A stretch of DNA of 55,699 bases. Source: Salinicola peritrichatus (GTDB taxonomy: Bacteria; Pseudomonadota; Gammaproteobacteria; Pseudomonadales; Halomonadaceae). Positions 7,349-55,057 of the stretch are shown piece after piece. The DNA is taken from positions 1 to 55,699 of the forward strand of contig NZ_PZJU01000034.1 of assembly GCF_003206715.1 (NCBI RefSeq), read 5' to 3'. The notes beneath the pieces are model-generated. The model made no database searches. It was given only the letters and a program-made list of their open reading frames with translations, and was not told the DNA's origin. The stretch's first letter is position 1; each line of letters opens with the position of its first letter. The translations under genes and the position numbers were made by a program.

Positions 7349-8125
7349 ATGGCGGCACGGGCAATCTGGAAAGGCGTGATCCACATCGCCGAAGAGCGGG
7401 TTCCGGTCAAACTCTACGCGGCGGTTTCCGATCGCAACGTGCATTTTCGACTGCTCGATCGACGCCGGCATCGTCCGGTGCATCAGCAGATGATCAACCC
7501 GCAGACGGGAAAGAGCGTGCCCCGGGAAGATCGACACAAGGCCGTGGTGGCCGACAATCGCGACAAGATCCTGTTCGACGAGGAGGAACTGGCCGAGTTG
7601 GCGCCGCCGCCTTCCCGTGACATCCAAGTGATGCACTTCCTCCCCGCCGGAACGATCGATCCGCAGTGGTACCAACGCCCCTATTTCCTGGGGCCGGACG
7701 GTGACGATGAGGCCTTCGACGCGCTGGCGGCGGCGCTCGCCGACAGTGGAAGAGAAGGCCTCGTGCACTGGGTGATGCGTCACAAGGCTTATGTCGGCGC
7801 GCTGCGCGACCGCGACGGGCATCCCGTCCTGATCGCCTTGCGCCATCTCGACGAAGTCGTCGATGCCGCTGCGCTGGAGCCGCCGGGCGGGGGCAAGCTC
7901 AATGCCGGAGAAGTGAATATGGCCACCGAACTGGTCAATATGTACGCCGCCGACTTCGAGCCCGAGACCTATCAGGACGAGTATCGGCAACGTCTGGAAT
8001 CGCTGGTGGAAGCCAAGCGCCGAGGCAAGCGGGTCAAGGTCAAGCGTCGCCGTCGTCAGGCGCCTTCGGACGATCTTGCCGCTTCGCTCAAGGCCAGCCT
8101 GGCCCGGGAGCGTCGACGTGCCTAA
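7349..8125 (+). CDS. ku: Ku protein, first copy
   Basis: A 258-residue bacterial Ku homologue, the DNA end-binding ring that recruits LigD. It starts (MAARAIWKGVIHI) two bases after the ligD stop, so it is translationally coupled. The core beta-barrel shows the usual FRLLDRRRHRPVHQQMINPQTG, VMHFLPAGTIDPQWYQRPYFL and VLIALRHLDEV stretches. The C-terminus is short and basic (KRRGKRVKVKRRRRQ), a DNA-binding tail. It differs clearly in sequence from the second Ku that overlaps its 3' end, so the two look like long-separated paralogues rather than a recent duplication. Confidence 0.93.
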   Translation: MAARAIWKGVIHIAEERVPVKLYAAVSDRNVHFRLLDRRRHRPVHQQMINPQTGKSVPREDRHKAVVADNRDKILFDEEELAELAPPPSRDIQVMHFLPAGTIDPQWYQRPYFLGPDGDDEAFDALAAALADSGREGLVHWVMRHKAYVGALRDRDGHPVLIALRHLDEVVDAAALEPPGGGKLNAGEVNMATELVNMYAADFEPETYQDEYRQRLESLVEAKRRGKRVKVKRRRRQAPSDDLAASLKASLARERRRA

Positions 8126-20617: not shown

Positions 20618-20653
20618 ATCGTTTTCAATTCCGGAATTCATAGAGAATTTTTC

Positions 20654-21841
20654 ATGAAAATCACCGATGTCGAAATATTGCCGGTCAATCGCTTCTTGTA
20701 TGTCCGGATCACGACGGATGAAGGACTGACAGGGATTGGGGAATCGGGAGCCTGGGGATTTCTCGACGCATCCGCACAGGCCATGGAGACCTTCAAGCAA
20801 TATCTGATCGGCAAGGATCCGCTGCATATCGAGCACCATTGGCAATATCTCTACCGCTCGTTCCACTTCCGGGGGGCGGCGATCATGGGCGCCATCAGCG
20901 CGATCGACATCGCCCTGTGGGATATCGCCGGGCAGTGGTTCGATGCGCCGATCCATACGCTGCTGGGCGGGCCATCCCGTCACAAGGTCCGCGCCTATTA
21001 CCACGTCAGCGGCGAGACGATCGAGGAACTGATCGATGAATGCGTCCAGGCCAAGGCGCAGGGTTATAGTGCGGTGGGGCATTTATCGCCTTTCCTGGAC
21101 GAGCCCCGGAGCAAGCCCTACTTCATGCCTTACGCGCAGATGATCAACGAAGCCGCCGACCGGGTGAGAATGCTGCGCGAAGCCGTGGGCGACGAGGTCG
21201 ATCTTTGCCTGGAGTTGCATCGCCGCATGAAACCCGGCGAAGCGATCGCCTTTGCGCAAGCGGTGGAGCCTTGGCGCCCATTCTTCCTGGAAGATCCCAT
21301 TCCCCCCGACAACTTCGATGCGATGGGGCTGGTGGCCGGCAAGACCACGGTTCCCATTGCCACGGGGGAACGGATCCATACGATCCAGGAATTCCAGATG
21401 CTGATGTCGCGCAATGCCATGACCTATGCCAGAACCAGCGTCTGTTTGTGCGGCGGCATCACGGGGACGCGCAAGATCGCCGCCATCGCCGAGTCTCATG
21501 GCGTGCAGATCGTCCCGCACAATCCGCTGAGTCCCGTCAGCACCACGGCCTGCCTGCACCTGTCGGTCGCCGTGGACAATTTCGCCGTCATGGAATTGCC
21601 CGACCACGATACCGTCTCGGCGACCGAGCGCTACACCAGCAGCGACTCCGTCGGCCAGGGCTCGTTCAAGCAGAGCGACATGGTGACCTGGGTGCCCAGG
21701 GCGGAAAACGGCTTCATTGCCGCGCCCGAGCGGCCGGGGCTGGGTATCGCGCTGGTCGATGACGTGACCGAGCGATTCCCCTATCGGCGGCGGGAAGTGA
21801 ATACCCGGCTGCATGTGGATGGTTCCGTCGTGGATCAGTAA
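20654..21841 (+). CDS. enolase-superfamily acid-sugar dehydratase (galactonate dehydratase-like)
   Basis: A 395-residue mandelate racemase/muconate lactonizing-type enzyme; such enzymes remove a proton alpha to a carboxylate with Mg2+ help. The N-terminal capping domain (MKITDVEILPVNRFLYVRIT) precedes the barrel. Candidate metal ligands are E187 (ELHRR), E213 (FLEDPI) and E239 (ATGERI), with acid/base candidates H189 and H289 (VPHNPLSP). Each is offset by exactly +4 from the D183/E209/E235/H185/H285 set of E. coli galactonate dehydratase, except that the first ligand is Glu instead of Asp. Expected to dehydrate an aldonate or aldarate; the actual substrate is unknown. Confidence 0.82.
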   Translation: MKITDVEILPVNRFLYVRITTDEGLTGIGESGAWGFLDASAQAMETFKQYLIGKDPLHIEHHWQYLYRSFHFRGAAIMGAISAIDIALWDIAGQWFDAPIHTLLGGPSRHKVRAYYHVSGETIEELIDECVQAKAQGYSAVGHLSPFLDEPRSKPYFMPYAQMINEAADRVRMLREAVGDEVDLCLELHRRMKPGEAIAFAQAVEPWRPFFLEDPIPPDNFDAMGLVAGKTTVPIATGERIHTIQEFQMLMSRNAMTYARTSVCLCGGITGTRKIAAIAESHGVQIVPHNPLSPVSTTACLHLSVAVDNFAVMELPDHDTVSATERYTSSDSVGQGSFKQSDMVTWVPRAENGFIAAPERPGLGIALVDDVTERFPYRRREVNTRLHVDGSVVDQ

Positions 21842-29649: not shown

Positions 29650-31314
29650 ATGAGCATCGACCCCCAAGCAGGACGCTTGCCCGACGAACACAGCCTCGCC
29701 AACCTGCCGCGCCTGGTTTCGCGCTATTACAGCGAGCATCCGGATCCCAGCGATCCCGGCCAGCAGGTCGCCTTCGGCACTTCCGGACATCGCGGTTCGT
29801 CGTTGAAGACCAGCTTCAACGAGTGGCACATTCTCGCCACCACCCAGGCGATCTGCGAGTACCGTCAGGCGCAGGGCGTCGATGGGCCGTTGTTCATCGG
29901 TATGGATACTCACGCGCTGTCGGAGCCGGCCTTCGTCTCGGCGCTGGAAGTGCTGGCGGCCAACGGCGTCGAGACGCGGATCGATGCCGGTTGCGAGGAG
30001 ACCAGCGGCGAGGTGGGTTATACGCCGACGCCGGCAATCTCCAACGCGATCCTGGTCTACAACCGGGGCCGGTCCAGCGGTCTGGCCGATGGCATCGTCA
30101 TCACGCCGTCGCACAATCCGCCGGTGGATGGCGGCTTCAAGTACAACCCCACCAATGGCGGCCCGGCCGATACCGGGGTGACCAAGTGGATCCAGGAGCG
30201 CGCCAACGCGCATCTGGCCGACGGTCTCAAGCAGGTCAAGCGTATCGATTACGCCAGGGCGATCGAAGCGCCGACGACCCAGCGCTTCGACTTCATCGAC
30301 AGCTATGTCGGCGGCCTCGACCGGGTGATCGACATGGCCGCGATTCGCGATTCCGGCCTCAAGTTCGGTGTCGATCCGCTCGGCGGCGCCGGCGTGCACT
30401 ACTGGCCCCGGATCGCCGAGAAGTACGATCTGCCGCTGGAGGTGCTCTCGACCACGGTCGATCCGACCTTCCGCTTCATGCGCGTCGACTGGGACGGCAA
30501 GATCCGCATGGATTGCTCGTCGCCCCACGCCATGGCCGGGCTGATCGAGAACAAGGACCGCTTCGACGTCTCCTTCGCCTGCGATACCGATCATGATCGT
30601 CACGGCATCGTCGCCCGTTCCACGGGGCTTCTGAATCCCAATCACTATCTGGCCGTGGCCATCGAGTATCTCTTCACTCACCGCCCGAACTGGGGCGACA
30701 AGGCGGCCATCGGCAAGACCCTGGTGTCGTCGTCGATGATCGATTACGTCGCCGAAGGATTGGGCCGCAAGGTGATCGAGGTGCCGGTGGGCTTCAAGTG
30801 GTTCGTCGATGGGCTGATCGAAGGCAGCCTCGGTTTCGGCGGCGAGGAGTCCGCCGGCGCGTCGTTCCTGACGCTCGACGGCAAGCCCTGGTCGACCGAC
30901 AAGGACGGCATCATCCTCGGCCTGCTCGCCGCCGAGATCACCGCCGTGACCGGCAAGGACCCGGGCGAGTGCTATCAGGCGCTGACCGAGCGCTTCGGCG
31001 CGCCGGTCTACCAGCGCGTCGACGCGCCGGCCAATCGCGAGCAGAAGGCCAGGCTCGGCAAGCTCTCGCCCGAGCAGGTCACCGCCGACACGCTGGCCGG
31101 CCATCCGATCACCCGCAAGCTGACCGAAGCCCCCGGCAACGGGGCGGCGATCGGTGGCTTGAAGGTGGTCACCGATGCCGGCTGGTTCGCCGCGCGCCCC
31201 TCCGGCACCGAGGATGTCTACAAGATCTACGCCGAAAGCTTCGAGGGTGAGGAGCACTTGAAGCGCATCCAGCAGGAAGCCAAGGCGCTGGTCGACGAGG
31301 TACTGGCGGGGTAG
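29650..31314 (+). CDS. pgm: alpha-D-glucose phosphate-specific phosphoglucomutase
   Basis: A 554-residue enzyme interconverting glucose 6-phosphate and glucose 1-phosphate via a phosphoserine. Conserved elements in order: [10 protein letters not shown] (substrate loop), [13 protein letters not shown] with the catalytic Ser, [10 protein letters not shown] (Mg2+ loop), [10 protein letters not shown] (sugar-binding loop), and the phosphate-binding [16 protein letters not shown]. Length matches E. coli Pgm. Its product feeds ADP/UDP-glucose synthesis, which would supply the glucosyl donor for glucosylglycerol, whose phosphatase gene lies 1.5 kb away. It converges on the aldehyde dehydrogenase gene with a 6-nt gap. 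Confidence 0.96.
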
Positions 31315-31320
31315 GTTTAT

Positions 31321-32769
31321 TTACCCCATATGGGTGACCAGCTTGGTGGTGAGGTAGGCTTCCAGCGCTTCGCTGCCGCCTTCGGAGCCGTAGCCGGAAT
31401 CCTTGATGCCGCCGAACGGCAGTTCGGGCAGCGCGATACCCAGGTGGTTGATGGTCAGCATGCCCGCTTCCAGCCGGTCGCTGAGCGCCTGGGCGGTTTT
31501 CGACGAGGCGGTGAAGGCGTAGGCGGCCAGGCCGAACGGTAGACGGTTGGCCTCGGCCAGTGCCTCTTCCAGGTCGTCGAACGGTACCAGCAGCGCCAGC
31601 GGGCCGAACGGTTCTTCGTTCATCGCGCGCATCTGCGGCGTCAATCCGGTCAGCACGGTCGGTTCGAAGAAGTAACCGGGGCCGTCGCTGCCCTTGCCGC
31701 CGAGTTGAACGGTCGCGCCCTGGCTGCGGGCATCTTCGATCAACGCTTCCAGTGCCGGACGACGGCGCTCGTTGGCCAGCGGCCCCATGGTCACGTCGGG
31801 GTCGAGTCCGTTGCCGACCTTGACCTCGCGGGCCAGGGCGACGAAGCGCTCCAGGAAGGTTTCGAACACGCCGCGTTGGATCAGGAAGCGGGTCGGCGAG
31901 ACGCAGACCTGGCCGGCGTTGCGGAATTTCGAACCGGCGAGCAGCCGCGCGGCCTGCTCGACATCGGCATCGTCGAAGACCAGTGCCGGCGCGTGGCCGC
32001 CCAGTTCCATGGTGGCGAGCTTCATGTGCTCGCCGGCCATGGCGGCCAGTTGCTTGCCGACCGGGGTGGAACCGGTGAAGGTGACCTTGCGGATCGTCGG
32101 ATGAGGAATCAGGTAGCTGGAGATTTCCGCCGGTACGCCGTAGACCAGACCGATGACGCCGGCTGGTACGCCGGCATCGGCGAAGGCGCGAATCAGCTCG
32201 GCCGGAGAGGCGGGCGTCTCTTCCGGCGCCTTGACGATGATCGAACAGCCGGTGGCGAGCGCCGAGGAGAGCTTGCGCACCACCTGGTTGATCGGGAAGT
32301 TCCACGGCGTGAAGGCCGCGACCGGGCCGACCGGCTGACGCACGACACGCTGCTCGACGCCGGCTGCCCGCGCCGGCACGATGCGCCCGTAGGTACGCCG
32401 ACCCTCCTCTGCCAGCCAGTCGATGGTATCGGCGGCGGCCAGGGTTTCACCGCGTGCCTCGGCCAGCGGCTTGCCCTGTTCCTGGGTCATCAGCCGTGCG
32501 ATGCCATCGGCGCGTTCGCGCAGCAGTTCGGCCGCCTTGCGCATGATCTTGTAGCGCTCGAACGCGGAAGTGGCGCGCCAGACCTGGAAGCCACGTTCGG
32601 TGGCGGCCAGGGCCGCGTCGAGATCGGCGGTGGTGGCGTGTGCAACCCGGCCGATCACCTCGCCGGTAGCCGGATTGACCACATCGATCTGGCGACCGTC
32701 GCTGCCTTCGCGCCATTCGCCATCGATGTAGAGTTTTACGTCGGAGTAGGATTGTGTTTCGAGTGGCAT
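31321..32769 (-). CDS. gabD: NAD(P)-dependent succinate-semialdehyde dehydrogenase-like aldehyde dehydrogenase
   Basis: A 482-residue aldehyde dehydrogenase that oxidises a semialdehyde to its acid. Visible motifs: [20 protein letters not shown] (cofactor site entrance), [20 protein letters not shown], the [11 protein letters not shown] segment with the general-base Glu, and catalytic C289 in [12 protein letters not shown]. The sequence style is GabD-like ([24 protein letters not shown]), but glutarate-, malonate- or other semialdehydes are possible. No gabT is adjacent. It lies 45 nt behind the glucosylglycerol-phosphatase gene on the same strand. Confidence 0.85.
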
Positions 32770-32814: not shown

Positions 32815-34155
32815 TCATAACCGTTCGGCGCCGGTTGCGGAGCCGTGCCTTGCCCGACGTTCGGCCAGCGCGCAGAAGAAATCGATGTACTGGATGTGGC
32901 CGCCGGGGAAGATCACGTCCAGGCGCAGCGGATCGTCGGCATCGGTAATGCCTTCCAGACCCGGCCAGGCATCGACGTTCGGGTCCTCGGCGTGGCGCGC
33001 GAGCCGTTCGGCATCTACCCCGGCGCGGCGTACCTCGCCGCCGCTGCTGTCGACGTAGAGCACCCGGTTGCCGCTGTCGAACGCATCCCCTAGCTGCTGG
33101 ACCAGAGTCAGAAAGCCGCGATCGCTGCCGCCGCGCAGACGCTCCACCCGGCCGTCGGCTTCGTGGGTGAACGAGGTCACCGTATCGCCGACGCCGACGA
33201 TCGTCGGCATCAAGGCGGGGTCGAAATGCTCGCGCGCGAGCTGCAACAGCGCGGCGTGATCGCGTGGCGCCTCGCGGGCGTTGAAGGCTTCGCCCAGCGG
33301 GTAGTGGCCGGTATGGCGGTGATAGTAACGGTTCAGGATCACCAGCACGCCGACTTCCTTGACGGCGCCACGCAGCATCAGTTGGAAGTCCGTCGTGCCT
33401 GCTGTCTTCGTGCCGGCGTTGTCGTCGCCGTCGCTCTCCCGCAGGCGCTCGTTGCCTTGCGCATCCCGGCCAGCATTGGGGGCATAGTGGATGAAAAAGG
33501 CGTCGTCGAGGCCGGCCTGGCTGGCGGCTTCCAGGCGATCGCGCATGAAATCGGCAACGGCGATCTGCAGCGCTCGATAGCGAGCGGGAGCGTCCCGCCA
33601 ATGGCGGTAGAAGACGTTGAGATTGAGCGTCGGCGAGGCCAGGTTGTCGAGCACGGCGCTGGCGATCAGGTCGCGCTTCGCTTCCGAATCCACGCAGTAG
33701 GGTGGCCTGGACAGCAGGTCGTCGAGGAAAGCCTCGGCCCGGGCCGGGAAATCGCGCAGGAAATCGAGCTCGGCCTGGCTGACGCCGGGGTGGGAAACGT
33801 TGCCGAAACGATCCTGCCACTGCACGCCGCCGGCGCCGAGCCCGGGTAGATAGCGGCCCTGTTCGCCAGCGCGATCGGTGGTGTCGAACAGCGATTCGAC
33901 GATGCCGTTGACGCCACGCGAGCCGATGTGCTCGCCGTTGGTCAGTACATAGAAATGACCATCCAGGTCTCGCGCGGCATCGAGATAGCGACGCTCGAGG
34001 CGGCGCGTCAGCGGATCGCCGACCAGCCCCATGCACACCCCGTCGAGATCCTGAATGATCAGCAGGTTGTCGATCGCGGCCAGCTCCGCGATCAGCCCCG
34101 CGTGGTCCAGGGAAAACGCTTGTTCATTGATCATGGCGACTTTTGGATCGTTCAT
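32815..34155 (-). CDS. ggpP: glucosylglycerol-3-phosphate phosphatase (StpA/GgpP-like)
   Basis: A 446-residue cytosolic HAD-like phosphatase resembling the cyanobacterial salt-tolerance protein StpA, which dephosphorylates glucosylglycerol 3-phosphate to the compatible solute glucosylglycerol. The recognisable stretch is LLIIQDLDGVCMGLVGDPLT with the DxD nucleophile motif, then HFYVLTNGEHIGSRGVNGIV. The C-terminal VIFPGGHIQYIDFFCALAE is also characteristic. The start at 34155 (MNDPKVAMINEQ) is tentative; 34188 and 34134 are alternatives and none has a clear ribosome-binding site. No synthase gene (GgpS) is in the window. In some pseudomonads the two activities are fused; here the phosphatase stands alone. 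Confidence 0.75.
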   Translation of the reverse strand: MNDPKVAMINEQAFSLDHAGLIAELAAIDNLLIIQDLDGVCMGLVGDPLTRRLERRYLDAARDLDGHFYVLTNGEHIGSRGVNGIVESLFDTTDRAGEQGRYLPGLGAGGVQWQDRFGNVSHPGVSQAELDFLRDFPARAEAFLDDLLSRPPYCVDSEAKRDLIASAVLDNLASPTLNLNVFYRHWRDAPARYRALQIAVADFMRDRLEAASQAGLDDAFFIHYAPNAGRDAQGNERLRESDGDDNAGTKTAGTTDFQLMLRGAVKEVGVLVILNRYYHRHTGHYPLGEAFNAREAPRDHAALLQLAREHFDPALMPTIVGVGDTVTSFTHEADGRVERLRGGSDRGFLTLVQQLGDAFDSGNRVLYVDSSGGEVRRAGVDAERLARHAEDPNVDAWPGLEGITDADDPLRLDVIFPGGHIQYIDFFCALAERRARHGSATGAERL

Positions 34156-34206
34156 GGCGACAGTATATCGAGCCGCACCGCCGAGCATAGCCCGGCCGGG
34201 CAGGCG

Positions 34207-39752: not shown

Positions 39753-39823
39753 TTTAATGTTCTAAGGCGGGAACCTCCGCTTGTCCTGCCGGTTCGACCG
39801 GTACCTGATTGCAGGAGATTGTC

Positions 39824-41023
<1,200 letters not shown>

Positions 41024-42439: not shown

Positions 42440-43135
42440 CTAGACCGTGTCCTCGATCCGCCAGTTGACCGGCACTTCGGCGATGCTGGCCGATGGTGGC
42501 AGTTCCAGCAGCAGGCGAACGATGCGTGCGACATCCTCGGGCTGGGTGACCTCCTCGGCATCGATATCGGCGCCAGCGGCCATGTCGGTGGCGACGAAAC
42601 CGGGGCAGATCGCGGTGGCGCGCACACGCGTCTCCGCACTGCAGTGACGCAGGCCGTGGACGAACGCCTGTGCCGCGAACTTGCTCATGGCGTAGAGCCC
42701 CGACCCCGCCGAGCGCACCCGCTTGCCCGAGAGCGACACGATCGACACCACCTTGCCGCGTTCGGCGGCGACGAGGTGGGGCCAGGCCTGCTGCGTCAGT
42801 AGCATCGGCGCCTTGGCGTTGACCGCCATGACCCGGTCGAATTCGTCGCTGTCCGCTTCCAGCACCGAGGCGCGGCTGAGAATGCCGGCGTTGTTGACCA
42901 GCGCATCGATGCCGCCGAACACGCGTACCGTCTCCTCGACCCAGGACCGGGCGCTCTGCGAATCCAGCGCATCGTAGTGGCAGACCAGCCAGTCATTGCG
43001 CTCCGGACGTTCTGCGGGCTCGGTCCGACAACCGAGGCTGACGCGCCAGCCGGCGGCGTGAAGGGTCTCGGCGATGGCGGCACCGATGCCACGATTGGCA
43101 CCGCTGACCATGACCACGGGGGCGTCGTTGGACAT
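42440..43135 (-). CDS. short-chain dehydrogenase/reductase (SDR)
   Basis: A 231-residue classical SDR. The cofactor motif GANRGIGAAIAETL is near residue 13, NNAG at ALVNNAGIL, the catalytic Ser in IVSLSGKRVRS, and the YxxxK motif as YAMSKFAAQAF; CPGFVATDM follows. It reduces or oxidises a carbonyl/alcohol with NAD(P)(H). It lies 67 nt downstream of the aminotransferase-like gene on the same strand, so it might be co-transcribed with the deacetylase-kinase-phospho-lyase cluster and act on its aldehyde product, but the gap leaves this open. Confidence 0.88.
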   Translation of the reverse strand: MSNDAPVVMVSGANRGIGAAIAETLHAAGWRVSLGCRTEPAERPERNDWLVCHYDALDSQSARSWVEETVRVFGGIDALVNNAGILSRASVLEADSDEFDRVMAVNAKAPMLLTQQAWPHLVAAERGKVVSIVSLSGKRVRSAGSGLYAMSKFAAQAFVHGLRHCSAETRVRATAICPGFVATDMAAGADIDAEEVTQPEDVARIVRLLLELPPSASIAEVPVNWRIEDTV

Positions 43136-43202: not shown

Positions 43203-44483
43203 CTAGCGGGGCGTTGCCCATCCCGCGAGCGAAGCCGCCAGCGCGTCGCTCAGTCTGTCCACGTGTTCCCGGGCGAATACCAGCGGCGGGCGGATCTTGA
43301 GCACGTTGCCGTGGGGGCCGGTGGCGCTGATCAGCACACGGCGCCGACGCAGCCCATCGACCAGGGTCTGTGCGCCTGCAGCGTCCGGGCGACCTTCGGC
43401 ATCGAGGACATCGACCCCAGCCAGCAGACCGCTGCCGCGCACCTCGCCGAGCCGCTCGCTCGCCCTGGCCAGCTCGTCCAGGCAGTCGTGCAGGTAACGT
43501 CCGACGCGGGCGGCGTTGTCGATGACGTCCTCTTCTGCCATCACCTCCTGTACCGCGAGTGCGGCAGCGCAGGCCACCGGATTGCCGCCGAAGGTATTGA
43601 AGTAGCGCGCGACCTCGCCGAAGTGATCCATCACGTCGCGTCGCGCCACGACTCCCGCCACCGGATGACCGTTGCCCAGGGGCTTGCCCAGCGTGACCAG
43701 GTCGGCCGTGACGCCATGACGTGCAAAGCCCCACATCGTGCCGGTGCGGCCGAGTCCCGCCTGTACCTCGTCGGCGATGTAGAGTCCGCCGGCACGACGG
43801 ATCGTCGCCACCGCCGGGGCGAGGAATTCGACCGGATCGGTAACGATCCCGTCGCTGGAAAACACGCCGTCGAGCAGCAGGGCCGCGGGACGAATGCCGT
43901 GAGCGACGAGATCGTCGATCGCCGCCTGCACGCCGGCGGCGAAGCGCTGCCCCATGGCAGCTTCACCGTCGCCGCAGTCGACCGGTGACGGTACGGTCCT
44001 GACGGCATCGCCTAGCCTGACGCGGCTGCCCAGCGACGGCGAGGCCTCTGCAATCGCCTGGGTCACGCCGTGATAGGCGAATTCGGTAACGATCAGCCCC
44101 TCGCCGCCGGTGAACGTGCGTGCCATGCGCAGGGCCAGATCGTTGGCCTCGCTGCCGGAGCAGGTGAACACCATCTGCGCCAGCGGCGCGGGAAGCGACT
44201 CGGTCAGACGCTCGGCGCAGTCGAGTATCGTCTCGTGCAGGTAGCGGGTGTGGGTATTGAGCGTGGCCGCCTGACGGGCGATCGCCTCTACCACGCGAGG
44301 ATGGCAGTGGCCAACGCAGGCGACGTTGTTGTAGGCGTCCAGGTGCGGCGCGCCATGGCGGTCGAAGAGCCACACGCCGTCACCGCGTACCGGATGGAAC
44401 GGCTCGTCGTAGAACAGCCGGTAGGAGGCACCGAGCAGACGGCGGCGGCGTTCGAGTAGGGTGTCGTCGTAAGGGTCCGTCAT
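43203..44483 (-). CDS. class-III PLP enzyme, AGXT2L-type phospho-lyase (5-phosphohydroxylysine or O-phosphoethanolamine lyase-like)
   Basis: A 426-residue PLP enzyme. The start at 44483 overlaps the kinase gene by 4 nt. From memory it matches human ETNPPL/PHYKPL more closely than true aminotransferases: LDAYNNVACVGHCHPRVVEA, LNTHTRYLHE, MVFTCSGSEANDLALRMART, IADEVQAGLGRTG, TLGKPLGNGHPVA with the PLP lysine, ARYFNTFGGNPVACA, and VLISATGPHGNVLKIRPP. Those enzymes eliminate phosphate and ammonia from phosphorylated amino-alcohols to give aldehydes. Coupling to a hydroxylysine-kinase-like gene strongly supports that chemistry. Ordinary transamination cannot be excluded. Confidence 0.8.
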   Translation of the reverse strand: MTDPYDDTLLERRRRLLGASYRLFYDEPFHPVRGDGVWLFDRHGAPHLDAYNNVACVGHCHPRVVEAIARQAATLNTHTRYLHETILDCAERLTESLPAPLAQMVFTCSGSEANDLALRMARTFTGGEGLIVTEFAYHGVTQAIAEASPSLGSRVRLGDAVRTVPSPVDCGDGEAAMGQRFAAGVQAAIDDLVAHGIRPAALLLDGVFSSDGIVTDPVEFLAPAVATIRRAGGLYIADEVQAGLGRTGTMWGFARHGVTADLVTLGKPLGNGHPVAGVVARRDVMDHFGEVARYFNTFGGNPVACAAALAVQEVMAEEDVIDNAARVGRYLHDCLDELARASERLGEVRGSGLLAGVDVLDAEGRPDAAGAQTLVDGLRRRRVLISATGPHGNVLKIRPPLVFAREHVDRLSDALAASLAGWATPR

Positions 44484-45574
44484 GCGTGCGGGCCTCCCGC
44501 GATGGTGGCGTCGTCGAGCGCCGCTGACAGGCGGCGTTCGAATGTCGCGGCCGGCAGGCTGGCGCAGTGGCGCAGAGCCCGCCACGAACCGGCGGTATTG
44601 CGCAGCAGATAGGCGGCATTTTCCGGATGCCGGCTGGCGCGGTAGGTCGAGACGGTGATCGCCATGGCGAGCCGCGTCTCGACCAGACCGCGCAGCAGTT
44701 CGACCTCCTCGGCACGCAGCGCCGACTGCCGATGATAGCCGGCAATCAGCGCCAGCGAGCCGGCCAGCGGATCGTCGGGATCGTTCATCTGGTACGCCGC
44801 AGCGACGGCCAGGTCGACGATCCGGGGGGCGAAGAGCATGTCGCCGAAGTCGATGATCCCTGCCGGCCAATCGGCAACGCCGTCGATCAGCGATTTCGGG
44901 TCGAACAATACGTTATGGCCATTGAGATCGTTGTGGATCGGCTGGCGTGGCAGCCGGGCCAGACGCGGTCGCAGCCGGTCGCGGAAGTCGCTCAGGTGCT
45001 GGCGGATCAACTCACGCTCCTCGGCCTCGACCAGGCTGTTGGTCTGCGGCATCAGCGCATCGGCACGCTGCAGATCCCAAGGCATGGGCTGATCGGCCAC
45101 CGGATGCTGGAAGTCGGCGAGCGCGTCGTCGATACGCGCCAGCCAGACGCCCAGCGTGCGACGGAAGGTCCGTGACGGCACCCGCCCGGCCAGCGGCGTT
45201 CCCGCCACGAAGGTCGACAGGCGCACACGGCTGATCCGGCCGTCCTCGAGTCGATGGGGCGGCGCCGGATCACCATCGAGGGCGTTCACCACGCGCGGAA
45301 TTGGCAGGGTCGGATCGCGCTCGGCCAGCCGCGTCAGCGCACGAACCTGGAAGTCCGTCACCGTCTCGCGCTCCGCCGGATGGGTGAACTTGAGCAGATA
45401 GCGGCGGCCGTCGGCAGCGGTGGCGCGGAAGTTGCGATCGCGTTCGCCGGCCAGCGGCTCGAGCGTGGCTTCGAGGCCGAAACGCGCTTCGAGCAGCTGT
45501 CGCGCGGTAGTGAGGGAAACCTCCAGCGCTGGTGCGTCCAGCACGTCTTCGTCCGGACTCGCTCGGTCGGTCAT
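44480..45574 (-). CDS. hydroxylysine kinase-like (APH-fold) phosphotransferase
   Basis: A 364-residue kinase of the aminoglycoside phosphotransferase fold. The catalytic loop is IHNDLNGHNVLFDP and the metal-binding loop IIDFGDMLFAPRIVDLAVA; YLLKFTHPAE carries the ATP-contacting Lys. The C-terminal RASRHPENAAYLLRNTAGSW resembles the same region of human 5-hydroxylysine kinase (HYKK/AGPHD1). It would phosphorylate a hydroxyl of a small amino compound using ATP or GTP. Its start touches the deacetylase stop (TGATG) and its 3' end overlaps the phospho-lyase gene, so all three are coupled. Confidence 0.82.
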   Translation of the reverse strand: MTDRASPDEDVLDAPALEVSLTTARQLLEARFGLEATLEPLAGERDRNFRATAADGRRYLLKFTHPAERETVTDFQVRALTRLAERDPTLPIPRVVNALDGDPAPPHRLEDGRISRVRLSTFVAGTPLAGRVPSRTFRRTLGVWLARIDDALADFQHPVADQPMPWDLQRADALMPQTNSLVEAEERELIRQHLSDFRDRLRPRLARLPRQPIHNDLNGHNVLFDPKSLIDGVADWPAGIIDFGDMLFAPRIVDLAVAAAYQMNDPDDPLAGSLALIAGYHRQSALRAEEVELLRGLVETRLAMAITVSTYRASRHPENAAYLLRNTAGSWRALRHCASLPAATFERRLSAALDDATIAGGPHA

Positions 45575-46626
45575 CACGCAAATCCCGCCAGGGCGCTTGC
45601 CAGATTGTCGCCCAGCGCATCGGAGAGATAGCCGCCTTCCTGTATGAGCACGGTGGGCAGGCCGAGCTGGGCGATGCGCCGGGTGATGCGTTCGAAGCCT
45701 TCGGTGGTCACCGCCACGCCCTGGTAGGGATCGTGTTCGTAGGCATCGAGCCCCAGCGATACCACCAGCGCCCCGGGGGCAAACGCGGCGATGCGCTCGC
45801 AGGCGCGATCCAGCTCGCGCAGATAACCCACGGTATCCAGCCCCTTGGGCAGCGGCAGATTGAGGTTGTAACCCTCGCCCTCGTGGCGTCCGGTCTCGTG
45901 AGCATGGCCAGTGAAGAATGGCGTCATGAAATGCGGGTCGGCATGCAGCGATACCGTCAGCACGTCGGCGCGCTCGTAGAAGATGCCCTGGTTGCCGTTG
46001 CCGTGATGGACGTCGATATCGAGTATCGCCACGCGTTCGTGATGTCGGCGCAGATCGCAGGCCGCGATGGCAGCGTTGTTGAGATAGCAGAAGCCGTTGG
46101 CGCGTTCGGCATAGGCATGATGTCCCGGCGGCCGGCACAGCGCATAGGCGACCTGATGACCAGGCTGAACCTTATCTGACGGAGCATGGCCCGCGGATAC
46201 GTGCGCTGTGGCGCTCAACGCGCAATTGGCGGCGCCGATCGCGGCCCGCCAGGTGCCGGCGCCGACCGACGCGGCCATGTCGCCCAGGTGAAAGCCGACC
46301 CGGCCGACCAGGTGGTCGGGATAGGTGCAGGGCTCGCCGGGGAACGGATGGATGTTGGCGACGACCTCCTCGGGGTTACGATCTTCCAGCTCGAGCCAGC
46401 GGGCATGCACGTGCTCGAGAAAGTCGAGATAGCGCGGCGTGTGCACCGATTCCAGCGGTTCGCGGCCGAAGGCGGCGGCGGGCATGAGCGTATGGCCGGC
46501 GCGCCTTGCCGCTTGCTCGAGACGCTCGGCGCGCTCCGGCTGCTCGTTGCTGCGCTGGACCTGACCGCGAACGACGAAGAACTGCGGGTCGTGATCGTGA
46601 TGGGTATCGCTCGTGAAAACGTGCAC
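45574..46626 (-). CDS. HDAC-like deacetylase (acetylpolyamine amidohydrolase type)
   Basis: A 350-residue arginase-fold Zn amidohydrolase. AGGAG (46633-46637) six bases before GTG 46626 (MHVFTSDTHHDHDP) decides the start over ATG 46677, which is embedded in a palindrome. Active-site elements: RPPGHHAYAE (tandem His), LDIDVHHGNGNQGIFY (Zn Asp/His), SLGLDAYEHDPYQG (Zn Asp) and QEGGYLSDAL with the catalytic Tyr. PQFFVVRGQVQRSNEQPERA at the N-terminus fits bacterial polyamine/acyl-amine deacetylases. It should free an amine from an N-acetylated substrate. First gene of the cluster, so probably the entry step. Confidence 0.87.
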   Translation of the reverse strand: MHVFTSDTHHDHDPQFFVVRGQVQRSNEQPERAERLEQAARRAGHTLMPAAAFGREPLESVHTPRYLDFLEHVHARWLELEDRNPEEVVANIHPFPGEPCTYPDHLVGRVGFHLGDMAASVGAGTWRAAIGAANCALSATAHVSAGHAPSDKVQPGHQVAYALCRPPGHHAYAERANGFCYLNNAAIAACDLRRHHERVAILDIDVHHGNGNQGIFYERADVLTVSLHADPHFMTPFFTGHAHETGRHEGEGYNLNLPLPKGLDTVGYLRELDRACERIAAFAPGALVVSLGLDAYEHDPYQGVAVTTEGFERITRRIAQLGLPTVLIQEGGYLSDALGDNLASALAGFA

Positions 46627-46675
46627 GCGTGACTCCTGGGTCGTCGTTGTCGGTCCGCTATCGCTATTCAGATGC

Positions 46676-46687
46676 ATGATGCATCAT
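46676..46687. promoter_or_regulatory. 12-bp palindrome, candidate GntR operator
   Basis: ATGATGCATCAT is a perfect palindrome between the divergent deacetylase (start 46626) and gntR (start 46802) genes, in an otherwise GC-rich region. It lies 50 bp upstream of the deacetylase start, where a repressor site is expected. Confidence 0.55.
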
Positions 46688-46801
46688 ATTGGCAGTGAGC
46701 TTACGCCGAGTGGCGTCAGGAACCAAGTCATGGTGATGATGGCTGGGCATGCGCCAGGGTTCGCGGTAGCGTAGCGTCGGTTTCCCGCTTCGAGAGACGA
46801 T

Positions 46802-47488
46802 ATGGATCACCGGTTCGATCGCGTCGAGCATGCTTCGCTCGGCGGCAATGTCTACGCCCACCTACGCGATTCGCTGATCAGCGGGCAGCTCAAGCCCGAC
46901 GACCGCCTGCGTATCCGCGAGCTGGCCGATCAGTTCGGCACCAGCGTCACGCCGGTACGCGATGCGATCTTGCGTCTGTGCAAGGAGCAGGTGCTGGAGA
47001 TGCGGTCCGCCCGCGACATTCGCGTGCCGGTGATCGACGTCGCGCAGTACGACGAAATCTATCGGCTGCGACTGGAGCTTGAAGGAATGGCAGCAGCGCT
47101 GGCCGCGGCGAACATCGAGGCAGCCGGCATGGAAGCACTGACTCGGCAGGTGGAGGACAATCATCGGGCGATCGCCGCCGGCGATATGGCCAAGGCGATG
47201 AAACTCAACCAGCAGTTTCACTTCGCCCTGGCGGCACTGGCCGAGTCACCGTTGCTCGAGCGCTTTATCGACAGCCTGTGGATGCGCGCCGGGCCGGTGA
47301 TCGCTCTGGCCTATCGCGCCTTCTCCGAGCGGGTCGCGATCCAGCACCATTGGGAGGTGCTGGAAGCGCTGGAACGGCATGATGCCGACGCCGCCGGCGC
47401 CGCGATCCGTCGCGATATCGAAGATGGCTACGAAATGATGACCCGATTCCTGACCACGATGCAGTCGGATCTCGATAAACGACGTTAG
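46802..47488 (+). CDS. GntR-family regulator with FCD domain
   Basis: A 228-residue regulator. The N-terminal winged helix (GGNVYAHLRDSLISGQLKPD, LRIRELADQFGTSVTPVRDA) is followed by an all-helical FCD ligand domain (about 85-215) with EIYRLRLELEGMAAALAA, the conserved Asn/His-bearing MKLNQQFHFALAALAES, and VAIQHHWEVLEALERHD (metal/ligand histidines). It is divergent from the deacetylase-kinase-phospho-lyase operon and probably represses it, with an organic acid or the pathway substrate as effector. Confidence 0.9.
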   Translation: MDHRFDRVEHASLGGNVYAHLRDSLISGQLKPDDRLRIRELADQFGTSVTPVRDAILRLCKEQVLEMRSARDIRVPVIDVAQYDEIYRLRLELEGMAAALAAANIEAAGMEALTRQVEDNHRAIAAGDMAKAMKLNQQFHFALAALAESPLLERFIDSLWMRAGPVIALAYRAFSERVAIQHHWEVLEALERHDADAAGAAIRRDIEDGYEMMTRFLTTMQSDLDKRR

Positions 47489-52131: not shown

Positions 52132-52278
52132 AGCGCACGATCGATGCGTTGACCGCATGCATGCATGCGTTTTTTGCGTTTTCAGGTTCTCGAGGCGCTG
52201 GGTAGGCTCATGCCGTATTCGGATGACTATCACGACAGTACTTCACAAGCACAACATCGCCTCCCAAGAGCCCAATCC

Positions 52279-53544
52279 ATGACCGAACTCTCCTCTTCAC
52301 GCTCCTCGCAAGCCGTCCTGTTCCGTAATGCCGACGTGGTCGACGGTTCGTCGTCCGAACCGCGTACCGGCGTCCAGGTCCTGGTCGAGAATGGCCGCAT
52401 CGTTCAGGTGGCTGACGAGTCGATCGACGCGCCACACGCCCGCGTCGTCGACCTTCAGGGTCGAACCCTGATGCCCGGACTGATCGACTGCCACGTGCAC
52501 GTCATCGCGACGACCGCCGATCTCGGCGCCAACGCGCTGCTTCCCGATTCCCTGATCGCGGCCCGCGCCACGCCGCTCCTGAAAGGCATGTTGATGCGAG
52601 GTTTCACCACCGTGCGTGACGTCGGCGGTGCCGATCGCGGCATTCAGCAGGCGGTGGCGGAAGGGCATTTCGTCGGCCCGCAACTGGTGATCTGTGGCAA
52701 GGCGTTGTCCCAGACCGGCGGCCACAACGACTATCGCGGCTTCTATGACGAGCGCGACGATCAGTACCAGACCCGGCGTCTGGGCTCCATGGGGCGCATC
52801 TGTGACGGCGTCGAATCCGTGCGGCGGGCCGTGCGTCAGGAGATCAAGGCCGGTGCCCAGTTCATCAAGGTGATGGCCAACGGCGGCGTGTCGTCTCCCA
52901 GCGATCCCATCGATTTTCTGAGCTTCTCTGTCGCCGAGCTCGAGACGATCGTCGAGGAAGCCAGCAACGCCCAGACCTACGTCAGCGCGCACCTCTACAC
53001 CGACGAAGCGATCCGGCGTGCCGTGAAAGCCGGCGTTCATTCGCTCGAGCACTGCAACCTGATCACCTTCGAGACGGCGCAACTGGCCGCCGAACGCGGC
53101 GCCATGGCGTGTCCGACGCTCGTCACCTACGAGCGGCTGAAGGCGGAAGGGGCGGAATATGGGCTCAAGCCGGAATCCGTGGCCAAGATCGACGACGTGC
53201 GCCTGGCCGGACTCGAGAGTCTGCAGACCATGCGCGAGGCGGGCCTGCCGATGGCCTTCGGCACCGATCTGCTCGGCGAGATGCAGCCGCACCAGTCCGA
53301 AGAGTTCGTGATCCGCGCTCAGGTATTGCCGCCGCACGAGGTGATCCGCAGCGCCACGCTGACCGCCGCCAAGCTTCTGCGCATGGAAGGCGAGATCGGC
53401 TGTATCGCGCCGGGCGCCCGGGCGGACCTGATCGTGGTCGACGGCAATCCGCTGGAAGACATGCGGCTGCTGACCGGCCAGGGCGAGCATCTTTCTCTGA
53501 TCATGCAGAGCGGTCGCGCGGTCAAGGATCGATTGAGCCGCTGA
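52279..53544 (+). CDS. metal-dependent amidohydrolase (prolidase/imidazolonepropionase-like)
   Basis: A 421-residue enzyme of the amidohydrolase superfamily starting at ATG 52279 (MTELSSSRSSQ). Binuclear-site features: LIDCHVHV, the bridging carboxylated Lys candidate in AQFIKVMANGGVSSP, VSAHLYTDEAI, VHSLEHCNL, and the Asp of AFGTDLLGE. The C-terminus shows the family's GCIAPGARADLIVVDGNPLE. Characterised relatives hydrolyse Xaa-Pro dipeptides or N-acyl amino acids. It lies 124 nt before an SSS symporter gene that may import its substrate. Confidence 0.88.
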   Translation: MTELSSSRSSQAVLFRNADVVDGSSSEPRTGVQVLVENGRIVQVADESIDAPHARVVDLQGRTLMPGLIDCHVHVIATTADLGANALLPDSLIAARATPLLKGMLMRGFTTVRDVGGADRGIQQAVAEGHFVGPQLVICGKALSQTGGHNDYRGFYDERDDQYQTRRLGSMGRICDGVESVRRAVRQEIKAGAQFIKVMANGGVSSPSDPIDFLSFSVAELETIVEEASNAQTYVSAHLYTDEAIRRAVKAGVHSLEHCNLITFETAQLAAERGAMACPTLVTYERLKAEGAEYGLKPESVAKIDDVRLAGLESLQTMREAGLPMAFGTDLLGEMQPHQSEEFVIRAQVLPPHEVIRSATLTAAKLLRMEGEIGCIAPGARADLIVVDGNPLEDMRLLTGQGEHLSLIMQSGRAVKDRLSR

Positions 53545-53668
53545 CATCGCGACGACACGCGAATGCCGGTATCGCAAGTGCCGGTATCCGAATGACGGCT
53601 TCGAGCGAATAGCGATCGAAGCCAATAACGACCGAAGCAAATAACAACCATAAAAGGAGACTGCGACC

Positions 53669-55057
53669 ATGCAGGCATTCTTCGTCATTGCCTATATCTT
53701 GCTGATGATCGTCATCGGACTGTACTTCTCGCGGCGCAAGGTCCACGACGATACCGACTTCATCGTGGCGGGACGTTCGCTCTCCACGATGGTCCTGACT
53801 GCGACGCTACTGGCGACTTTCGTCGGTTCGGGGTCGATCGTCGGCGGTGCCAGCTTCGTGTTTCAGCACGGGCCGGGTGCGGCGATCTTCTTCTTCGCCG
53901 GCACGCCGATTGCCGCTCTGGTGGTCTATTTCCTGCTGGCGCGAAAGATGCGGCGTTCGCGGGCAACCACCATTCCCGGTCTGATCGAGGAGCGCTTCGG
54001 ACCCACGGCACGCTCCATCGCCTCGCTGATCATTCTGCTGGCCTACGTCGGCATCGTCTCCTACCAGTTCACCGGTGCCGGCCAGGCGCTCAACCTGGCC
54101 TTCGGCCTGCCGGTGTGGCAGGGCGTGCTGATCGCTGCGGTGGTGATGATCGGCCTGGCGACCATGGGCGGGCTGGTCTCGGTGGCGTACACCGACTATC
54201 TCAGCGCCGTGATCATCTTCGGCAGCATGTTGATCGCGTTGCCCCTGGTGCTGACGCGGCTGGGCGGTCTCGACGGCATGCTGGAAGCGCTGCCAGCAAC
54301 GCATCGCACGCTGCTGGGCGGGCTGTCGTCATGGCAGGCGCTGGGCTACTTCCTGCCGCTGTTCCTGCTGATCCTGGGCGATCAGAATCTGTTCCAGCGC
54401 TTTGCCGCCGCGCGTGATCCGGCCACGGCCAAGAAGGCCGCCATGGGCCTGGTGATCGCCTCGATCGTCTGTACCGGCCTGATCACCCTGCTGGTCTGCG
54501 CCACGCGGGTGATGTACCCCGACATCACGCCTTCCACGGCCATGATGACGCTGGCACAGCAGGGTTTGCCCACGGTCGTCGGTGGCCTGTTGCTGGCCTC
54601 GATCGTGGCGCTGCTGCTGACGACGGGGAACTCCTATCTGCTCTCGGCATCCGCCAGCCTGACGCAGGACATCCTCGGCGGTCTGCTGAAGATCCAGATC
54701 GCGCCAGGCAAGGCACTGATGGTCAACCGGCTGACCGTCGTCGGCCTGGGCGTACTGGCGTGGATCCTCGGGGCGTTCTTCCCCAGCGTGCTGGCGATGC
54801 AGATGTACTCCTACGGCATGTATGGTGCCGCCATCACCCCGGTCTTCCTGGCTGCGCTGCTATGGCCGCGGGCGACGCCGGCCGGCGCACTGGCGGCGAT
54901 GATCGTCGGCGGCGTCATGACGCTGGTGTGGGAGATCGCGCTGGGCAAGCCGATGGGCTGGAACAGCGTGCTGGTGGCCATGCCACTGGCGGCGGTCACA
55001 CTGATCCTGGTCAGCCTGGCTGGCAAACGTCAGCCGGCGGTATCGATGAGCAGCTGA
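53669..55057 (+). CDS. sodium:solute symporter (SSS family)
   Basis: A 462-residue, ~13-helix Na+-coupled transporter with a clear AAAAGGAGA site upstream. The SSS pattern is visible: YFSRRKVHDDTDFIVAGRSL, LLATFVGSGSIVGGASFVFQ, ATTIPGLIEERFGPTARSIA and GDQNLFQRFAAARDPATAKK. It forms a pair with the preceding amidohydrolase. Substrate unknown; peptides, amino acids or nucleobase-type compounds are possible. Confidence 0.92.
   Translation: MQAFFVIAYILLMIVIGLYFSRRKVHDDTDFIVAGRSLSTMVLTATLLATFVGSGSIVGGASFVFQHGPGAAIFFFAGTPIAALVVYFLLARKMRRSRATTIPGLIEERFGPTARSIASLIILLAYVGIVSYQFTGAGQALNLAFGLPVWQGVLIAAVVMIGLATMGGLVSVAYTDYLSAVIIFGSMLIALPLVLTRLGGLDGMLEALPATHRTLLGGLSSWQALGYFLPLFLLILGDQNLFQRFAAARDPATAKKAAMGLVIASIVCTGLITLLVCATRVMYPDITPSTAMMTLAQQGLPTVVGGLLLASIVALLLTTGNSYLLSASASLTQDILGGLLKIQIAPGKALMVNRLTVVGLGVLAWILGAFFPSVLAMQMYSYGMYGAAITPVFLAALLWPRATPAGALAAMIVGGVMTLVWEIALGKPMGWNSVLVAMPLAAVTLILVSLAGKRQPAVSMSS

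Follow-up and report, generated by a model that had tools for sequence, protein, structure and literature searches.

Background

To our knowledge, routes that pair a kinase with an ammoniophospholyase are known mainly from mammals and from a few bacteria, and many bacterial deacetylases of the HDAC fold have no known natural substrate. In the mammalian system (HYKK and PHYKPL) a kinase is followed by a class-III PLP ammoniophospholyase, the same succession as in the operon described here; the mammalian hydroxylysine pathway has, as far as we know, neither a deacylase nor an importer, whereas the operon has a deacylase. The operon is located in a 55,699-nucleotide stretch of Salinicola peritrichatus (contig NZ_PZJU01000034.1), hereafter called the window. 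No paper on an operon combining a deacetylase, a kinase and a phospholyase was found among the matches listed from the open-licence PMC literature.

Organization of the operon and its regulatory region

The three genes, here called DEAC1, KIN and PLP, are all found where they had originally been placed (Table 1), with an overlap of 1 nt between DEAC1 and KIN (TGATG) and of 4 nt between KIN and PLP (ATGA). They had been described as fused, but they are overlapping, separate genes; fusions of kinase and lyase do occur elsewhere. The expected SDR gene is present and begins 67 nt past PLP, and the facing GntR/FCD gene is present as well. Of the aldehyde dehydrogenase that had been associated with the operon, the existence in the window could be confirmed, but no link with the operon is visible there.

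Table 1 Positions of the operon genes and of related features in the window
Feature	Position	Strand	Description
DEAC1	45574-46626	-	350 aa; Zn amidohydrolase with HDAC fold; opens the operon; PF00850, 236.7 bits
KIN	44480-45574	-	APH-fold small-molecule kinase, 364 aa
PLP	43203-44483	-	426 aa; class-III PLP enzyme, ammoniophospholyase group; 444 bits to the C-terminal part of PRK06148
SDR oxidoreductase	42440-43135	-	Last gene of the unit; PF00106
GntR1	46802-47488	+	GntR/FCD regulator, divergent from the operon; PF00392 and PF07729
AGGAGT	46632-46637	-	Ribosome-binding site of DEAC1, from sequence
ATGATGCATCAT	46676-46687	.	Perfect palindrome, some 50 bp before the start of DEAC1; probable GntR1 operator
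Aldehyde dehydrogenase gene	31321-32769		About 11 kb from the operon; adjoins a glucosylglycerol-phosphatase gene

DEAC1 starts with GTG at 46626, five bases downstream of AGGAGT; an alternative ATG at 46677, overlapping the edge of the palindrome, appears less likely as a start. The sequence CAGGAGT also occupies the place of this ribosome-binding site in loci L039 and L040, though not in L038. A scan of the window gave no RNA families at the gathering threshold and no tRNAs.

The palindrome between regulator and operon is probably the operator of GntR1. The sequence TGATGCATCAT is common to the four intergenic regions compared, and one copy of TGATGCATCA lies 40–60 bp upstream of DEAC1 in all five genomes searched. 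In the 4.6-Mb genome TGATGCATCA has four copies (reversed control, one). In genome G032 the exact decamer does not occur more often than its reversed control (two versus three copies), and 16 out of 100 shuffled versions of the window reach one hit to the palindrome when one mismatch is allowed.

Conservation of the gene context

The linkage of the three genes is conserved. In 80 DEAC loci, which are phylogenetically non-independent, KIN and PLP are both found no more than 10 kb away in 13 of those 14 whose DEAC is at least 60% identical, and in two of the remaining 66, some of which have short flanks (Fisher p = 4.5e-12). In a sample of 299 genomes, KIN is found within 10 kb of a DEAC at three places outside its own genome, against 0.19 expected (p = 0.001). 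Chance neighbours are ruled out by this conserved linkage and the excess in the sample. The complete set occurs in 8 of 18 Salinicola genomes, in Halotalea and in Burkholderiales, always in one gene order, while DEAC1 and the close PLP enzyme are absent from the other 10 Salinicola genomes. An in-frame start 4 nt inside the preceding stop is seen between DEAC and KIN in 7 and between KIN and PLP in 5 of 14 three-gene loci; most others have short gaps, with a DEAC-KIN gap of at least 424 nt in L058 and a broken kinase frame in L061. The question raised by the original prediction, i.e. whether the three genes are conserved together, is thereby answered positively, and its view of a kinase/phospho-lyase pair joined to a deacetylase in one regulated unit is supported across families.

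The kinase and the lyase also occur apart from the deacetylase. At 37 of the 41 KIN places in the 299-genome sample no DEAC lies within 10 kb, and the kinase-lyase step can therefore do without a DEAC; 18 of these 41 places, judged by frame length alone, fall within an open frame of 779 aa or more. The locus L069 carries a DEAC1-clade gene with no KIN or PLP within 10 kb. On plasmids, an HDAC gene lies beside KIN in 2 of 12 records read with flanks (taken from the best 40 of 312 with KIN; a thirteenth repeats L014), and KIN and PLP lie near DEAC in one of seven new loci read (from the best 40 of 168 with DEAC). The SDR gene goes with the unit in those Salinicola loci that were read, as it does in three of six Comamonadaceae loci (56–61% identity), preceding DEAC1 in the Comamonadaceae loci L058–L060; it was not found with the unit in the Halotalea or Achromobacter loci.

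A peptide/nickel-type ABC importer is often encoded close to the three-gene set, joined in part of the loci by a class-II aldolase-like gene. In several species a GntR gene stands between the operon and a divergent group containing the importer and the aldolase-like protein, to which Salinicola adds a 2-hydroxyacid dehydrogenase and a second HDAC-fold enzyme. In genome G001 the importer, the aldolase-like gene, DEAC2 and an M20 hydrolase are present without DEAC1. This group of partners suggests that what is imported may be a larger conjugate, with the amino alcohol as one half. The original prediction did not include the palindrome, the importer with its partner genes or the separate, probable ethanolamine version in this genus.

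Characteristics of the encoded enzymes

The best PDB matches of the PLP enzyme are 5g4i (a phospholyase, 363 bits), which we take to be the Arthrobacter phospholyase A1RDF1, and 6tor (ETNPPL, 312 bits), followed by the next family at 164 bits. In the tree, whose outgroup branches are long and whose root is uncertain, it is found with both solved phospholyases, split from three aminotransferases at 100/99. The protein also has all 17 group residues, including GKPxGNGHP around the lysine; each of these residues is shared by 95% or more of the 48 lyase-group rows and is missing from the aminotransferases, of which only three were compared. Judged by its sequence, the enzyme groups with the ammoniophospholyases rather than the aminotransferases. 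The match to phospho-lyases noticed originally holds in all three respects, no placement among ordinary transaminases was found, and identity as an ordinary aminotransferase is ruled out by bit scores, tree and group residues. The DEAC-linked rows are spread over more than one clade (two changes), and at the cut-offs used only four columns distinguish them from the rows labelled as ethanolamine, a label that preceded the per-locus permease search and includes L030, where neither permease nor kinase was found. Copies were left out of the trees (L038, L042, L051 and L146, copies of L053, L052, L014 and L041), as was the cut-off GABA transaminase of L015 from the outgroup; through the open-frame or length filter, no tree includes the kinases of L018, L034, L057 and L061 or the PLP genes of L028 and L057.

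In KIN, the catalytic motifs of the APH fold are intact, with D216, N221, D242 and D245 invariant in 34 aligned rows, and the structure model has a pLDDT of 93.7. Its nearest solved folds among the matches listed are homoserine kinase, N-acetylhexosamine kinase and aminopropanol kinase; HYKK is absent among the structure matches listed, which excludes nothing. The homologue search scored 7,999 candidates; among the best 120 of 253 homologues, 33 of which entered the structure alignment, 'hydroxylysine kinase' occurs as an automatic name only. Support for the closeness to hydroxylysine kinase suggested originally comes from such names. In the kinase tree the DEAC-linked kinases of Halomonadaceae and Burkholderiales, 17 of 21, cluster together (91/94).

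The best PDB matches of DEAC1 are the acetylpolyamine amidohydrolases 3men and 9gkz (273 bits), and its alignment displays the HDAC fold with the RPPGHH and EGGY motifs and the Zn ligands. Residues H158/H159, D195/H197/D284 and Y323 (Mycoplana ApaH numbering) are invariant in the DEAC1 clade. According to PMC11532494, the acetylpolyamine amidohydrolases constitute cluster 4 of the bacterial deacylases and have a PIS motif at 290–292 and, for the distal amine, Glu106 (His in the Pseudomonas enzyme). In all 22 DEAC1-clade rows (19 distinct loci, L057 left out) Glu106 is replaced by Val, Glu17 by Phe, Phe27 by Asn and the PIS motif by PY(Q/R/K), albeit that these polyamine-linked residues are rare in the other compared DEACs too. 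A polyamine substrate appears less likely because of these replacements, and the hydroxy-polyamine originally considered loses ground with it. A function as plain acetylpolyamine deacetylase is likewise made less probable by the loss of these residues from the clade. The whole DEAC1 clade also keeps Arg25 of the entrance loop, a residue that recurs in 27 of the 79 other DEACs. In the window protein, Mycoplana positions 25, 27, 106 and 291 correspond to Arg25, Asn27, Val107 and Tyr301, respectively.

A separate, probable ethanolamine version in Salinicola

Six other Salinicola loci (L024–L029) encode a second PLP enzyme, 53–55% identical, with an APH kinase nearby in each case. In five of the six (all except L026) an ethanolamine permease (TIGR00908, 614 bits, cut-off 382) or a relative lies beside this enzyme; L032 has one as well. 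The kinases of these loci split from KIN at 100/100, no DEAC match was found in L024–L029, and the window holds no relative of the L024 permease at E 1e-10. On the sequence evidence, the window kinase differs in kind from those that accompany ethanolamine permeases in Salinicola. A plain ethanolamine pathway is made less likely by the permease, the kinase split and the lack of a permease relative in the window. One genus would thus possess two versions of the pair, a probable ethanolamine version and another with a different substrate, and automatic names such as hydroxylysine kinase and 4-aminobutyrate aminotransferase are therefore unproven for such records.

Proposed pathway and candidate substrates

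We propose, with a probability of roughly 0.75, that the operon serves the breakdown of a 1,2-amino alcohol carrying an N-acyl group, in the simplest case N-acetyl. DEAC1 would hydrolyse the amide to the free amine, and KIN would use ATP to phosphorylate the adjacent hydroxyl group. The PLP enzyme would bind the amine as an external aldimine and eliminate the phosphate, leaving an enamine product that would hydrolyse to an aldehyde (or ketone) and ammonia; the aldehyde or ketone would then be reduced or oxidised by the SDR. GntR1 would control the operon via the intervening palindrome. The gene order, the protein families, the intact catalytic residues, the conservation and the common palindrome are observations, whereas we infer each reaction as well as the control by GntR1; the chemistry originally put forward (deacylation, phosphorylation, elimination) is supported on the same footing.

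As to the substrate, an amino-alcohol conjugate outside the specific candidates comes first, at just under even odds. An N-acetyl-hydroxylysine-like amino acid is second and doubtful; next are an N-acyl ethanolamine or aminopropanol and, equally unlikely, an N-acyl hydroxydiamine or hydroxyectoine-derived amine. Tentatively, and at somewhat less than an even chance, the operon may form the central part of a bacterial pathway not yet described, whose substrate would be a 1,2-amino alcohol in a peptide-like or hydroxyacyl conjugate. This conjugate would be imported by a dedicated peptide/nickel-family ABC transporter and degraded by a non-polyamine HDAC-fold hydrolase, the kinase and the ammoniophospholyase, while the acyl half would pass to the aldolase-like protein and the 2-hydroxyacid dehydrogenase. 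If true, this would be a nutrient not yet known to be degraded by such a route.

Acetylated 5-hydroxylysine would be deacetylated by DEAC1, converted by KIN to 5-phosphohydroxylysine and by the PLP enzyme to 2-aminoadipate semialdehyde, as in mammals. This is possible but doubtful: the logic of kinase and ammoniophospholyase is the same, relatives of KIN bear the automatic name, and Val in place of the polyamine-binding acid, together with the invariant Arg25, would suit a carboxylate. Against this, Arg25 is shared with other DEACs, and two KIN-PLP pairs lie by amino-acid-type ABC genes with no HDAC gene listed in the 15 kb covered; no lysine-type transporter or aminoadipate gene is among the neighbouring genes named. 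Use of N-acylethanolamine or N-acyl-aminopropanol, with acetaldehyde or propionaldehyde as products, is less likely again, since Salinicola has its separate version with permease, distant kinase and no counterpart of the permease in the window; it is nevertheless suggested by the names of the two solved PLP relatives (phospholyase and ethanolamine-phosphate phospho-lyase), by the aminopropanol kinase 6ef6 among the nearest KIN folds, and by the few columns distinguishing the two kinds of PLP enzyme.

Acetylated hydroxypolyamines (e.g. N-acetyl-2-hydroxyputrescine) as a nitrogen source are improbable in view of the residues replaced in DEAC1 and of the peptide/nickel family of the linked importer, even though the closest solved relatives of DEAC1 act on acetylpolyamines and two DEAC-less KIN-PLP pairs are near an ABC transporter and GABA-degradation genes. 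Slightly more improbable is a hydroxyectoine route, in which N-acetyl-3-hydroxy-2,4-diaminobutyrate would be deacetylated, phosphorylated and converted by elimination to aspartate semialdehyde. The host belongs to a halophilic family, and on a Chelatococcus plasmid HDAC, KIN and PLP genes are followed, after a few others, by an Lrp-MocR-eutB-eutC-doeA ectoine cluster; however, this is a single case, with an HDAC 42% identical to DEAC1 and two genes between HDAC and KIN, the importer is of another family, and many carriers are Burkholderiales, which we do not know as halophiles. The least probable reading, an ordinary omega-aminotransferase operon with unrelated neighbours, would fit the class-III aminotransferase domain given by Pfam, but is contradicted by the lyase-group position of the PLP enzyme and by the conserved linkage of the three genes.

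Comparison with known systems

The preferred reading, a catabolic unit for an N-acylated 1,2-amino alcohol, has partial counterparts in several known systems. ETNPPL (6tor) and the Arthrobacter phospholyase (5g4i) belong to the same group as the window PLP enzyme and have most group residues in common with it, but neither falls within the 41-row group (96/92) to which the window enzyme belongs; we know of no DEAC partner for either. The kinase-lyase fusions PRK06148 and PRK06149 have profiles covering KIN N-terminally and PLP C-terminally (positions 7–339 and 586–1009, respectively, for PRK06148); they differ from the operon in being single proteins of about 1,000 aa with an extra middle region, and no DEAC part was matched in them. 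The aminopropanol kinase of bacterial microcompartments (6ef6) is 20% identical to KIN; the genes named around the operon include none for a microcompartment. The ethanolamine loci of Salinicola resemble the operon in having a PLP enzyme with an APH kinase nearby, and differ in their permease, distant kinase and lack of a DEAC match. Finally, the cluster 4 acetylpolyamine amidohydrolases, as described in PMC11532494, share the fold, motifs and Zn ligands of DEAC1 but not the clade's replacements of Glu106 and the PIS motif. The chemistry is recognisable from these systems, whereas the combination of genes and the nutrient seem to be undescribed; a conserved operon coupling both enzyme families gives a testable prediction for each of them, namely of which N-acyl amino alcohol serves as the nutrient.

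Operon structure

The window is a 55.7-kb contig of a Salinicola genome. Its sequence bears out the coordinates and overlaps originally given for an HDAC-fold deacetylase (DEAC1), an APH-fold kinase (KIN) and a class-III PLP enzyme (PLP), but not their description as fused: they are separate genes that overlap by 1 nt between DEAC1 and KIN (TGATG) and by 4 nt between KIN and PLP (ATGA). DEAC1 most likely begins with GTG at 46626, with AGGAGT five bases ahead of it; an alternative, longer frame, opening with ATG, would start on the final two bases of the palindrome that is the candidate operator.

Coordinates of the operon genes, the divergent regulator and the candidate operator in the window
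Feature	Position	Strand	Description
GntR1	46802-47488		GntR/FCD gene, divergent from DEAC1
ATGATGCATCAT	46676-46687		Candidate operator, between GntR1 and DEAC1
DEAC1	45574-46626	-	HDAC-fold deacetylase
KIN	44480-45574	-	APH-fold kinase
PLP	43203-44483	-	Class-III PLP enzyme
SDR	42440-43135	-	Oxidoreductase, 67 nt after PLP

The only nine-base words common to the intergenic regions compared (window, L039, L040 and L038) belong to the TGATGCATCAT core of ATGATGCATCAT. The pattern TGATGCATCA occurs four times in the 4.6-Mb own genome and 3, 4, 3 and 2 times in four relatives, versus once and 0, 0, 0 and 3 times for its reversed control, and one copy is found about 40-60 bp upstream of DEAC1 in all five genomes. 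The site recurs upstream of DEAC1, yet other copies exist, and in one relative (G032) the control is as frequent. With one mismatch the pattern occurs once in the window (0.19 expected), a count reached by 16 of 100 shuffles.

The PLP enzyme

Among solved structures, PLP scores 363 bits with the Arthrobacter phospholyase 5g4i and 312 bits with the ethanolamine-phosphate phospho-lyase 6tor, versus 164 bits for the next family after the phospholyases. A 51-row tree splits the lyase group from three aminotransferases with branch supports of 100/99; PLP falls within a set of 41 rows (96/92) to which neither solved enzyme belongs, the root being uncertain because the outgroup branches are long. Seventeen positions are common to at least 95% of the 48 lyase-group rows and occur in none of the three aminotransferases, and PLP has all 17. 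Bit scores, tree and residues together argue against a place among ordinary omega-aminotransferases, the outcome that the original prediction had named as speaking against itself. The PLP enzymes linked to a deacetylase homologue (DEAC) are not one clade: seven are from Halomonadaceae (100/99), a second set of 13 is from Burkholderiales and Bradyrhizobium (84/95), and those of L017 and L050 are unplaced.

Conservation of the gene linkage

Eight of the 18 Salinicola genomes, our own included, have DEAC1 (at least 82%) and a close PLP enzyme (at least 80%), and ten are without; gene order was read in six of the eight. A scan of genome contigs with the DEAC alignment identified at least 80 loci. 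Among the matches listed, 14 loci have at least 60% identity, and in 13 of these both KIN and PLP are found no more than 10 kb from DEAC (Salinicola acroporae, Halotalea, three Achromobacter, Caballeronia, Pseudorhodoferax, Comamonas, two Pseudacidovorax, Paracidovorax, Curvibacter and Cupriavidus), the sole unlinked locus being L069 from Comamonas. For the remaining 66 loci, some of them short-flanked, the matches listed include KIN and PLP only in two, both from Bradyrhizobium, where these genes lie on the far side of importer genes. Of the 21 DEAC-linked kinases, the 17 from Halomonadaceae and Burkholderiales cluster together in the kinase tree (91/94), outside which fall the Bradyrhizobium pair and those of Chelatococcus and Tritonibacter. 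On the Chelatococcus plasmid pTAD1 (L017, 3838-14909), the HDAC, KIN and PLP genes precede an ectoine/hydroxyectoine utilisation cluster by a few genes.

In a sample of 299 genomes, DEAC was found within 10 kb of KIN in four of 41 places, one of which is the window; the other three compare with 0.19 expected (p 0.001). The association is real, though 37 of the 41 KIN places do without DEAC within that distance. In the Salinicola loci read, SDR belongs to the unit, and in three of six Comamonadaceae loci an SDR with 56-61% identity lies upstream of DEAC1; it was looked for and not found at the Halotalea, Achromobacter and Cupriavidus loci. Another recurrent HDAC-fold cluster, with no kinase, was seen in many loci (L091-L131; Mesorhizobium, Ensifer and others), in the order DMF-amidase-like protein, class-III aminotransferase, BKACE-like cleavage enzyme, GNAT and DEAC, some loci missing parts.

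Residues of the deacetylase

The nearest solved relatives of DEAC1 are the acetylpolyamine amidohydrolases 3men and 9gkz (273 bits). In an alignment of 115 DEAC proteins and three solved chains, the DEAC1 clade was defined as the 22 rows (19 distinct loci) with more than 58.5% identity to DEAC1; the catalytic residues are invariant in these and in the other 93 rows. PMC11532494 links Glu106 and a PIS motif to polyamine binding in bacterial deacylases. In all 22 clade rows Glu106 is replaced by Val and PIS by PY(Q/R/K). Further replacements (Glu17 to Phe, Phe27 to Asn, Glu117 to Ala) affect positions that we assume to be polyamine-related. Such loss is not peculiar to the clade, as Val106 occurs in 56 and Phe17 in 68 of the 79 remaining DEACs, with Ile291 in just two. 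Tyr291 and Thr225 mark the clade (22 of 22 rows, none of the other 93), while Arg25, Ser26, Asn27 and Arg164 are invariant in it and, except for Asn27, not rare elsewhere. This residue pattern suggests that the substrate is not a polycation, and the entrance loop would be compatible with a carboxylate.

Metal genes were observed near deacetylase loci, namely a ZigA zinc GTPase in the window (39809-41023; 697 bits, cut-off 600), metal ABC transporter genes in L041 (12391-15130), and Fur and metal ABC genes in L045 (8171-12307); they possibly reflect metal supply for metallohydrolases, or possibly chance.

Importer and partner module

An ABC importer of the peptide/nickel family, here labelled Dpp, has a binding protein scoring best with the NikA and Opp4A models, far under their cut-offs. 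In the congener G004 (L041/L146), module and operon are contiguous: a second HDAC-fold enzyme (DEAC2), a GhrA-like 2-hydroxyacid dehydrogenase (model NF012013; the own-genome copy scores below its cut-off), DppDCBA and a class-II aldolase-like protein (322 bits with PRK07044, against a cut-off of 207) run in one direction, and a second GntR, DEAC1, KIN, PLP and SDR in the other. Importer and aldolase-like gene also flank DEAC1 in Halotalea, three Achromobacter and Cupriavidus. Six Comamonadaceae loci of the scan have importer genes near DEAC1 without the aldolase-like gene; neither turned up at the Comamonadaceae plasmid locus L012, read with 7 kb flanks, or at L057, where the contig starts with DEAC1. 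An M20 (ArgE/DapE-type) gene accompanies the module in G001, G017 and five Comamonadaceae loci, and is absent from G004 and from the own genome's stretch of contig C49, which carries the module separately (L138; DppA 91%). In G017 about 27 kb separate the module from the operon, with a symporter gene (L142) in between that shares 92% identity with its counterpart at the right end of the window, which makes C49 the probable continuation of the window on that side. G001 carries DEAC2 and the M20 gene along with the module, but no DEAC1, and as sole PLP match one of the ethanolamine kind.

Other genes in the window

A glucosylglycerol 3-phosphatase (32815-34188, -; TIGR02399, 476.7 bits, cut-off 365.5) lies beside a phosphoglucomutase-like gene (29650-31311, +) and an SSADH-like aldehyde dehydrogenase (31321-32769, -), possibly as an osmolyte cluster; the latter is probably the aldehyde dehydrogenase meant in the original prediction. 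A hydrolase (12993-14207, +) matches a Zn-dependent hydrolase of the allantoate/carbamoylase type from the Chelatococcus locus (44%, 406 aa) and perhaps serves purine use, outside the operon, since a xanthine/uracil-type permease (10578-11957) is nearby. A LigD-type multidomain DNA ligase (4701-7343, +) and a gene that by eye reads like Ku (8076-9182) would make a bacterial end-joining pair. A 2-hydroxycarboxylate transporter adjoining a mandelate-racemase/MLE family enzyme (19331-21838, +) forms a small catabolic pair, and 52165-55057 (+) holds genes for an amidohydrolase whose kinship with Xaa-Pro dipeptidase scores 262 bits, below cut-off, and for a sodium/solute symporter.

Candidate substrates and proposed route

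Salinicola also has a second PLP enzyme of the lyase group, 53-55% identical to that of the window. At L024 it adjoins a TIGR00908 ethanolamine permease (614 bits, cut-off 382) and an APH kinase; across six such loci (L024-L029), this permease, or one related to it at about 40-94% identity, is present in five and a kinase in six, with no such permease in the stretch read of L026. A 100/100 split separates their kinases, grouped with two others, from the KIN group. These loci probably represent a bacterial ethanolamine route by kinase and phospholyase, and a separate version in the genus argues against ethanolamine as substrate of the DEAC-linked one. Since, with the cut-offs chosen, only four columns distinguish the two types of PLP enzyme, it is the kinase, permease and DEAC that carry this argument rather than the lyase. 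Acetylated hydroxylysine as a nutrient is the best single named candidate, if in itself an unlikely one. The peptide-family importer, the second HDAC-fold hydrolase and the 2-hydroxyacid dehydrogenase suggest that the imported compound is a larger conjugate, its other half a hydroxy acid.

No description of the DEAC-KIN-PLP gene set was found in the literature among the matches listed; a Herbaspirillum operon in PMC13275390 is annotated with a 'hydroxylysine kinase' and a '4-aminobutyrate aminotransferase'. Judging from the protein families, we propose that DEAC1 would hydrolyse an N-acyl amino alcohol, KIN would phosphorylate the hydroxyl beside the amine so freed, PLP would eliminate phosphate, giving ammonia and an aldehyde, and SDR would finish the route. 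The kinase-lyase logic of this unit is the same as that known from mammalian hydroxylysine breakdown, mammalian phosphoethanolamine breakdown and bacterial aminopropanol use.
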